DNA of 64,000 nucleotides. Source: Cladophialophora immunda (Eukaryota; Ascomycota; Eurotiomycetes; Chaetothyriales; Herpotrichiellaceae). Both the position numbers and the translations under genes were made by a program. Shown piece after piece: positions 2,954-3,692 of this stretch. The DNA is taken from NCBI RefSeq assembly GCF_000835495.1, contig NW_015622541.1:6696001-6760000 (forward strand), written 5' to 3'. Below the pieces are notes generated by a model, which was not told the DNA's origin, did no database searches, and saw only the letters and a program-made list of their open reading frames with translations. Positions within the stretch are counted from its first letter, which is position 1; the number at the start of each line of letters is the position of its first letter.

Positions 2954-3451
2954 AGAATGCTCTGGTGCACTATTTTCCTTTGGTTCGGATATCAAGGCCC
3001 TCAATGTGTCAGTGAACCAATGCACACAGTTTCTTTGAGGAGCTATATGAAGCCATTGTTTGTGGGGGTTCCCTTGAATGCTGGACACTGCTGATTTGAA
3101 GCTGGTGACTGGGAGAGTGTCTTGGTAATAGCAATCAAAGTCCTAATCGCCCATCTTCCGCTCATGGCTAAGCTGCTCGCCGTTATTACTCGCCCTTCTC
3201 GTAGAATGAAGGCGTGCAACCACTTAAAATGCAAATTTGACGTGTGTTGAAATGGTACCTGAGTCCGTCCCCAAATGCCGAGCCTCAGCCCGGGAGAGGA
3301 GATTTCGGACACTTTGTGGCTCACCTTCGAAAGACCGAGCGTGGGATGCCAAGACGGAACATGTTAGCGCCCACAGAAGCGGGGTGTCTGATTTTTACAC
3401 AATATAATATTTACCATCGGAATGTCCTTCAACAATCACAACAGGAAACAT
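2954..3451. other. Intergenic region, MOSC gene to tRNA-Asn
   Basis: About 500 bases. Short frames on both strands have no recognisable content. The last tens of bases are the 5' flank of the tRNA gene; no upstream Pol III element is obvious, as expected for internally promoted tRNA genes. Confidence 0.4.
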
Positions 3452-3475
3452 TCCTCTGTGGCGCAATTGGCTAGC

Positions 3476-3526
3476 GTATGTATCAGCAAGACCGCTAAGT
3501 CGACACAGCTAACAGTGTTTCTCCAG
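3476..3526 (+). other. Spliceosomal-like intron in the D arm of tRNA-Asn
   Basis: The 51-base insert starts GTATGT, has GCTAAC at 3508-3513 and ends TTTCTCCAG. These are the donor, branch site and acceptor of protein-coding introns in this same window. Excision joins GGCTAGC to GCGTCTGA and restores the 3' strand of the D stem exactly. Confidence 0.75.
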
Positions 3527-3540
3527 GCGTCTGACTGTTA

Positions 3541-3591
3541 ATTCACGATTTGACACTGTGAAAAACAAGTGATCAAAGGGGATCAACACCC
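3541..3591 (+). other. Canonical-position tRNA intron (37/38) of tRNA-Asn
   Basis: The 51-base insert lies directly after the base 3' of the anticodon, where the tRNA splicing endonuclease cuts nuclear pre-tRNAs. It has no GT...AG borders. AACA at 3585-3588 could pair with the TGTT of the anticodon loop. I could not confirm a full bulge-helix-bulge by eye. Confidence 0.7.
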
Positions 3592-3596
3592 ATCAG

Positions 3597-3645
3597 GTGG
3601 GAACTATGCTCAACTGAATCTTACTCCCAAACTAACAACTCACAG
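3597..3645 (+). other. Spliceosomal-like intron in the anticodon 3' stem of tRNA-Asn
   Basis: The 49-base insert starts GTGGGA (G at +5), has ACTAAC at 3631-3636 and ends ACTCACAG. Excision joins ATCAG to GAGGTTGG, completing the anticodon 3' strand TCAGG. The donor is weaker than that of the D-arm intron. Confidence 0.7.
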
Positions 3646-3685
3646 GAGGTTGGTGGTTCGAGCCCACCCGGAGGAGCATCTATTC

Positions 3686-3692
3686 TTTTTTT
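3686..3692 (+). terminator. Pol III T-tract terminator of tRNA-Asn
   Basis: Seven T residues ten bases after the discriminator base match an RNA polymerase III termination signal. Confidence 0.75.

Follow-up and report, generated by a model that had tools for sequence, protein, structure and literature searches.

Putative spliceosomal introns beside an ordinary tRNA intron in a fungal tRNA-Asn gene and in further tRNA genes of the same genome

We analyzed a stretch of 64,000 nucleotides (hereafter, the window) that contains an interrupted tRNA-Asn(GUU) gene (Table 1). Its four exons join into a tRNA of 74 nt with all arms paired, and ARAGORN reads tRNA-Asn(gtt) once all three inserts (51, 51, and 49 nt) are removed. 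The coordinates, the lengths and the 74-base product agree with those of the original prediction, which had also assigned the middle insert to the normal 37/38 site, a position that we reproduced on the sequence. In contrast, the two outer inserts lie off the 37/38 site that is expected of introns cut by the Sen endonuclease. The gene presents the features of a Pol III gene, namely two contiguous internal boxes and a T7 run downstream, all of them already noted in the original prediction. A neighboring transcription-factor gene encodes a product that is 95% identical to a protein of Fonsecaea multimorphosa (Herpotrichiellaceae, Chaetothyriales) and 92% identical to a protein of Cladophialophora bantiana. 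The best counterpart of a nearby MFS transporter gene is the F. multimorphosa protein whose locus number directly follows that of the transcription-factor match. These neighbors place the genome within, or close to, Herpotrichiellaceae.

Table 1. Parts of the tRNA-Asn locus (positions in the window) and tRNA genes with mRNA-type inserts (insert sites counted in mature nucleotides)
Feature	Position	Strand	Details
tRNA-Asn exon 1	3452..3475	+	acceptor 5' strand and D arm up to position 23
A box, positions 8-19, unbroken	3459..3470	+	sequence
mRNA-type intron 1, 51 nt	3476..3526	+	site 23/24; GTATGT...GCTAAC...CTCCAG; CTAAC at 3509-3513
Exon 2	3527..3540	+	end of D stem, anticodon stem, anticodon GTT (3537-3539), A37
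Ordinary nuclear tRNA intron, 51 nt	3541..3591	+	site 37/38; without GT-AG ends and without CTRAY
Exon 3, 5 nt	3592..3596	+	positions 38-42
mRNA-type intron 2, 49 nt	3597..3645	+	site 42/43; GTGGGA...AACTAAC...TCACAG; CTAAC at 3632-3636
Exon 4	3646..3676	+	variable loop, T arm, acceptor 3' strand, G73
B box GGTTCGAGCCC, unbroken	3655..3665	+	sequence
T7 run, Pol III-type terminator	3686..3692	+	begins 9 nt after the gene
TATA-like upstream element	3402..3409	+	about 50 nt 5' of the tRNA-Asn gene
Asn-GUU			inserts after 24 and 43 nt
Pro-CGG			insert after 8 nt
Pro-AGG (L076)			inserts after 3 and 31 nt; the first within the acceptor stem, exon 1 = 3 nt
Pro-UGG (L094)			insert after 52 nt; splits B box after G53
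Ala-AGC			insert after 7 nt
Leu-UAG			insert after 15 nt
Leu-CAG			inserts after 9 and 29 nt
Asp-GUC copy 1 (L017)			insert after 24 nt
Organelle-like Asp-GUC (L095)	G000:C3:5795289	+	insert after 53 nt
Glu-CUC			insert after 15 nt
Glu-UUC			insert after 42 nt
Ile-AAU copy 2 (L084)			insert after 15 nt
Ile-UAU (L074)			insert after 3 nt; within the acceptor stem, exon 1 = 3 nt
Val-AAC			inserts after 16 and 27 nt
Phe-GAA			inserts after 15 and 29 nt
Ser-GCU			inserts after 24 and 53 nt
Gly-UCC (L052)			insert after 57 nt; T loop, splits B box
Arg-UCU			insert after 45 nt

No tRNA was detected by ARAGORN and Rfam in the raw, unexcised window. Given the unspliced tRNA-Asn gene, ARAGORN reads a tRNA-Phe, and it reads a tRNA-Ser when the 37/38 insert alone is removed. 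Based on structure alone, the outer splice points of tRNA-Asn have 5 and 10 equal-scoring placements, and the GT-AG placement is one of each. The second mRNA-type intron presents a weak 5' splice site (GTGGGA) and leaves an exon of only 5 nt.

GT, AG, and CTRAY are short and common motifs, and the pattern could in principle reflect chance or an assembly artefact. We therefore cut all segments of 46-65 nt that fit GT..G...CTRAY...AG out of the window sequence, on either strand, singly or in neighboring pairs, and ran ARAGORN on the products. Across 310 excisions, a tRNA followed by a T run was recovered only at tRNA-Asn. Two overlapping solutions were obtained there, and the better one corresponds to exactly the two outer introns. 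These outer inserts present the splice signals that had been claimed for them. The same approach was applied to 141 supposedly tRNA-free loci (some loci overlap, and only the central 1.1 kb was scanned in the longer ones), where 327 excisions produced one match: a true tRNA-Gly(UCC) gene with a 57-nt GTAAGT...CTAAC...CAG insert in its T loop. As a positive control, we scanned 13 interrupted loci that were already recognized, and the tRNA was recovered in 12 of them, in some cases with a misplaced 37/38 intron and a wrong anticodon as a result. The scan missed Leu-UAG, whose intron starts with GTAAAT and falls outside the filter. The excision scans refute the chance reading, and the same interrupted architecture is found at 18 places distributed over contigs C1 to C7, such that chance or faulty assembly is extremely improbable.

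We further searched the 42.2 Mb genome for other tRNA-Asn genes. The segment from the T arm to the acceptor end (24 nt, up to three mismatches) occurs once, as does the exact anticodon-arm exon. When two mismatches were allowed, the anticodon-arm search returned 24 matches relative to 81 for the reversed control, and only the single exact match, the gene of the window, is informative. At 19 of the 23 other places (L041-L059), ARAGORN found no tRNA in the surrounding 600 bases when introns as long as 120 nt were permitted. Among the best 63 of 935 candidates, which the Rfam tRNA search scored, 23 genes reached E <= 0.001 and a further three, weaker places reached E <= 10; none of them reads as Asn. 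An exact-match scan of prokaryote and virus collections with the 3' half of tRNA-Asn returned nothing. Since this 3' half is present once in 42.2 Mb, the locus of the window is the only tRNA-Asn gene found. A count of uninterrupted tRNA-Asn(GUU) genes elsewhere had been proposed as a check on the original prediction, and the T-arm, anticodon-arm, and Rfam searches revealed none.

A total of 42 tRNA genes were identified in the genome, of which 18 (one organelle-like) carry mRNA-type inserts (17 of 41 when the organelle-like gene is left out). These inserts, 24 in all, are located at many tRNA sites. The inventory is incomplete and was partly picked by eye: it comes from B-box pattern searches (two in full and five giving at least about 100 places each), with about 125 stretches chosen by eye, and from Rfam matches. 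Most candidate loci originated from tRNA searches; the intron motif itself brought in Gly-UCC, Arg-UCU, and Glu-UUC, and it was visible while boundaries were set by eye. Forty stretches (L161-L200), one of them a known Ile gene, provided no new tRNA. After excision of all introns, ARAGORN returned the expected isotype and anticodon for 18/18 genes. Among the first 14 genes, the expected call was obtained for 1 gene when unspliced, for 2 when only the 37/38 insert was removed, and for 11 when only the mRNA-type inserts were removed. The inserts of Arg-UCU, Glu-UUC, and Ile-UAU were recognized only on re-examination, these three genes having initially passed as ordinary; Ile-UAU keeps a T-T mismatch at 31-39.

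Screening the other 24 genes for GT..G inserts and full acceptor pairing revealed no such insert, with one unpaired acceptor position in L001. Asn, Phe, Pro, and Glu have no copy devoid of an mRNA-type intron among the 42 genes. With the intron set at 37/38, none of the other 24 genes can be assigned to Asn, Phe, Pro, or Glu (L067 has no solution there and is called Met by ARAGORN). Several of these 24 genes are misnamed by ARAGORN, which puts the 37/38 intron elsewhere. L062 was called Pro(tgg) but reads Thr(AGU) once the intron is forced to 37/38 with five anticodon-stem pairs. The call of L074 as Asn(ATT) was a poor solution; this gene is the Ile(UAU) gene with an acceptor-stem intron, as confirmed by ARAGORN after excision. 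A weak tRNA-like match (L096, C2:3286361) was unconvincing and was left out.

The organelle-like gene (L095) resembles tRNA-Asp(GUC), lacks a 37/38 intron and carries a 61-nt GTAAGT...CTGAT...TAG insert in its T loop. We take its sequence to be that of an organelle-type tRNA-Asp, and the gene may be a mitochondrial tRNA gene that was copied into the nucleus and acquired an intron. Two further observations concern B-box-like sequences outside of tRNA genes. At G000:C2:2861579 (L105), the perfect palindrome CTCTCAGTTCGAACCCGGGTTCGAACTGAGAG holds two opposed B-box-like sequences and is not a tRNA. The U6 snRNA gene (L080, G000:C3:4237854-4237954, minus strand) aligns with all 105 positions of its model and contains no intron, and the B-box-like GTTCGATTCC lies about 40 nt downstream of it (C3:4237791).

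The searches and the stretches covered did not contain any gene for Gln, His, Lys, Tyr, Trp, Leu-UAA, or Val-CAC. Introns that interrupt the B box, or B boxes of atypical sequence, may have concealed the Gln, His, Lys, Tyr, and Trp genes. Because isoacceptors are missing and three genes were recognized only on re-examination, the real number of interrupted genes is probably higher. Published inventories report 30 tRNA genes identified by ARAGORN in F. erecta (PMC5640708), 52 tRNA genes in Cladophialophora immunda, 28 of them spliced (PMC5595782), 41-45 tRNA genes across the five genomes of a comparison on Exophiala spinifera (PMC7412599), and, in Exophiala dermatitidis, a set of tRNAs that lacks only Trp and includes 26 with an intron (PMC4463862). 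The tRNA data of one more study on relatives are mitochondrial (PMC5844311). The published counts would be compatible with some hidden genes, but they also suggest that standard programs detect most tRNAs in some relatives.

Two pairs of paralogues define the insertion without recourse to splice signals. The two copies of tRNA-Asp(GUC) (L017 and L081) have identical exons of 72 nt; in copy 1, an exact 53-nt GTAAGT...CTAAC...CAG insert separates CATGA from TTTCC, which adjoin each other in copy 2. The 37/38 introns of these two genes differ in sequence. Similarly, copy 2 of Ile-AAU (L084) is interrupted in the D loop and copy 1 (L006) is continuous there. Since Asp and Ile-AAU each possess a copy without an mRNA-type insert, their interrupted copies could be dispensable, as would be expected if the interrupted genes were dead copies, trapped by intron insertion (through reverse splicing or transposition) and out of use. 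However, the exons of the interrupted genes give complete or near-complete cloverleaves, no other tRNA-Asn gene was found, and the genome cannot lack tRNAs for Asn, Phe, Pro, and Glu, all of which are without an intron-free copy in our set. This argues against dead copies, which we consider very unlikely, although the incomplete inventory makes an unseen intact copy possible. The original prediction had hesitated between a trapped copy and maturation by two machineries; the latter is strongly favored by the lack of any other Asn gene in our searches and by the 17 further interrupted genes with intact mature tRNAs.

The signals of the extra inserts are homogeneous. All 24 are GT...AG with a CTRAY motif, although the GT-AG ends are partly chosen by rule, as splice points were set by GT-AG wherever the structure left a choice. 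The branch A is located 10-15 nt from the 3' end in each of them. Their lengths range from 49 to 63 nt (median 53.5), 20/24 carry CTAAC, and 19 start with GTNNGT. By comparison, these genes have 17 inserts at 37/38, which measure 8-51 nt; none of them is GT-AG, and one contains CTRAY. We also slid the inserts at fixed length (up to 8 nt) using the cloverleaf score only, and the GT-AG placement was among the best in 19/20 inserts (83 equal-best placements in all); we estimate that well under one structure-allowed GT-AG placement is expected by chance. The exception is Ala-AGC, where a non-GT-AG placement two bases leftward restores one more acceptor pair. The G3-T70 pair of this gene, which we take to be the alanine identity element, is present under either placement.

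The MFS transporter gene of the window provides mRNA introns for comparison. It contains three, of 61-65 nt, with GTGAGT/GTAAGC/GTGAGC at the 5' end, CTGAC 12-14 nt from the end, and a final AG. Once these are spliced, the gene encodes a stop-free product of 514 aa, 95.7% identical and gapless to the Fonsecaea protein. The search for these introns demanded a CTRAY, and length and branch distance were compared with these three mRNA introns. The transcription-factor gene has one candidate intron, which we left out as ambiguous (47-62 nt). The outer inserts had been predicted to match the mRNA introns of the neighboring genes in length and signals. This resemblance holds for the GT...CTRAY...AG pattern, the branch distance and, approximately, the length (49-63 vs. 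61-65 nt), but the branch motif is CTGAC in the MFS introns vs. CTAAC in most tRNA introns, and three mRNA introns are too few for comparing it. We also tested 21 introns for introner-like relatedness and found a mean pairwise similarity of 0.41, relative to 0.38 after shuffling (best pair, 0.62; shuffle maximum, 0.54). This small excess may come from the common CTAAC and from composition, and no clear copy family was observed, although a shared, recently copied introner may still be among their sources.

Cyanidioschyzon merolae possesses nuclear tRNA genes with multiple introns in the D, anticodon, and T arms (PMC9602550), and the tRNA endonuclease could likewise remove all the inserts described here, in which case their GT-AG appearance would be incidental. 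Two inserts are compatible with this scenario: intron 1 of Leu-CAG and intron 1 of Phe permit 4 and 3 of the 4 central pairs of a bulge-helix-bulge, a motif in which bulges of 3 nt flank a central helix of 4 bp. We used a simplified 4-pair test on the first 15 genes, before the last three joined the set, and found at least 3 pairs in 2/20 mRNA-type junctions vs. 5/14 junctions at 37/38, a modest difference. The outer introns of tRNA-Asn form 1 and 0 of the 4 pairs, which agrees with the spliceosomal reading that had been proposed for them. These results, together with the GT-AG ends, the CTRAY motif, and the regular branch distance found in 24/24 inserts, make removal by the endonuclease alone highly improbable.

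We compared the sequences around the interrupted genes with those around the other tRNA genes. A TATA-like motif was found within 70 nt upstream of 9/15 interrupted genes vs. 14/27 others, three of which later proved to be interrupted. This motif is not discriminating, and we observed no promoter difference between interrupted and other genes. The inserts split the A box in Pro-CGG, Leu-CAG, Leu-UAG, Glu-CUC, Ile-AAU, Val-AAC, and Phe, and the B box in Pro-UGG, Gly-UCC, and the organelle-like Asp. Such splits should be harmful to the binding of Pol III factors unless intron bases or upstream elements compensate. Transcription by Pol II within longer RNAs, which would be spliced like mRNAs and trimmed to tRNAs later, would account for efficient splicing and for tolerated split boxes. 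However, T runs of at least 4 nt are found within 40 nt downstream of 42/42 genes; these runs are not independent evidence for the genes found by the B-box searches, which demanded them, but the 23 genes of the Rfam search were not so selected. Both internal boxes of tRNA-Asn are contiguous, and splicing of the Pol III U6 transcript of fission yeast indicates that Pol II is not needed (PMC10484740). Pol II transcription of the interrupted genes is accordingly given little credence. Separately, a CTTCAACAA-like motif lies about 17-25 nt 5' of several interrupted tRNA genes (window position 3452, L077, L082, L121, and L150) and probably represents Pol III start-site context. In L094 and L052, the intron ends leave a partial B-box-like sequence (e.g., AAGTTCAATTCC).

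Taken together, these sequence data suggest that the tRNA-Asn(GUU) gene, of which we found no other copy, is very probably functional, with two spliceosomal introns and one 37/38 intron, and that it is one of at least 18 such genes. The outer introns are most likely removed by the spliceosome, and the 37/38 intron by the tRNA endonuclease. We infer that Pol III would transcribe the interrupted gene, that the spliceosome would take out the outer introns first, and that the 37/38 intron would be left to the tRNA endonuclease and ligase. In eukaryotes, this endonuclease sets its cuts by measuring from the body of the folded tRNA. Because this body cannot fold before the introns of the D, anticodon, and T arms have left, spliceosomal removal is expected to come first and the cut at 37/38 second. 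An origin of these introns by reverse splicing is possible but unproven.

The spliceosome is likely to be an obligatory tRNA-maturation machine in this fungal lineage: the decoding of Asn, Phe, Pro, and Glu codons would need mRNA-type splicing of Pol III pre-tRNAs before the endonuclease acts. The same kind of intron may conceal Gln, His, Lys, Tyr, Trp, Leu-UAA, and Val-CAC, and pipelines expecting introns at 37/38 only would overlook such genes or assign them wrongly. In the standard account, nuclear tRNA introns form a single class, located at 37/38 and removed by a protein endonuclease, and a second class that depends on a different machine appears here in essential tRNA genes. If this is true, mRNA splicing capacity would be coupled to tRNA supply, uncapped Pol III transcripts would be routine substrates of the spliceosome, and the tRNA inventories produced by standard programs for such fungi would be incomplete. 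Intron gain could then be studied in genes with mature products of only 71-83 nt, in which insertion sites can be read. It also becomes possible to test directly whether any nuclear transcript is open to invasion by spliceosomal introns.

Introns of mRNA type are also present in the U6 genes of fungi other than fission yeast. In fission yeast, U6 is a Pol III transcript with an mRNA-type intron that is spliced and is thought to derive from reverse splicing near the catalytic nucleotides (PMC10484740). The genes described here similarly contain a spliceosomal-type intron inside a presumed Pol III non-coding gene. Unlike U6, however, the interrupted genes encode tRNAs; they occupy 18 loci and contain one or two mRNA-type introns each, mostly alongside a 37/38 intron. 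Since tRNAs are outside the catalytic core of the spliceosome, the reverse-splicing argument made for U6 is not directly transferable. Spliceosomal introns in the rDNA of lichen fungi are spliced out of Pol I transcripts, and their removal also takes place in engineered yeast (PMC8527467); in addition, an mRNA intron in the 18S rDNA of deuteromycetes is cited in the reference list of another article (PMC11782384). These ascomycete introns also interrupt structural RNA genes, but the host here is a tRNA, presumably transcribed by Pol III, whose maturation would need cooperation with the tRNA endonuclease.

Multiple introns in tRNA genes are themselves known from a few systems. The nuclear tRNAs of C. 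merolae have up to three, and the anticodon intron of its three-intron tRNA-Ile leaves after the other two (PMC9602550), an order that parallels the one we propose, with the 37/38 intron last. The three introns of the C. merolae tRNA-Ile(UAU) are bulge-helix-bulge introns, whereas only the 37/38 introns fit this class in our set and the others are GT-CTRAY-AG. Several introns per gene (two or three, some off 37/38) also exist in tRNA genes of the Guillardia theta nucleomorph, with excision confirmed by RT-PCR (PMC4090602); these non-canonical inserts measure 3-24 nt and their removal mechanism is unknown, in contrast to the 49-63 nt mRNA-type inserts found here. The middle insert of tRNA-Asn and 16 others resemble ordinary eukaryotic 37/38 introns, and the extra inserts differ from them in position, ends, and branch motif. 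According to the same review of tRNA introns, eukaryotic insertions off 37/38 are supposedly rare and mostly found in pseudogenes, save for nucleomorphs and C. merolae, and the string 'spliceosom' is absent from its main text (PMC4090602). No report of spliceosomal introns in nuclear tRNA genes was present among the matches listed by a full-text search, which covered few subscription papers and no preprints. The precedents are U6 and rDNA, and what is new here is the presence of mRNA-type introns in tRNA genes, at genome scale and in combination with the classical tRNA intron.
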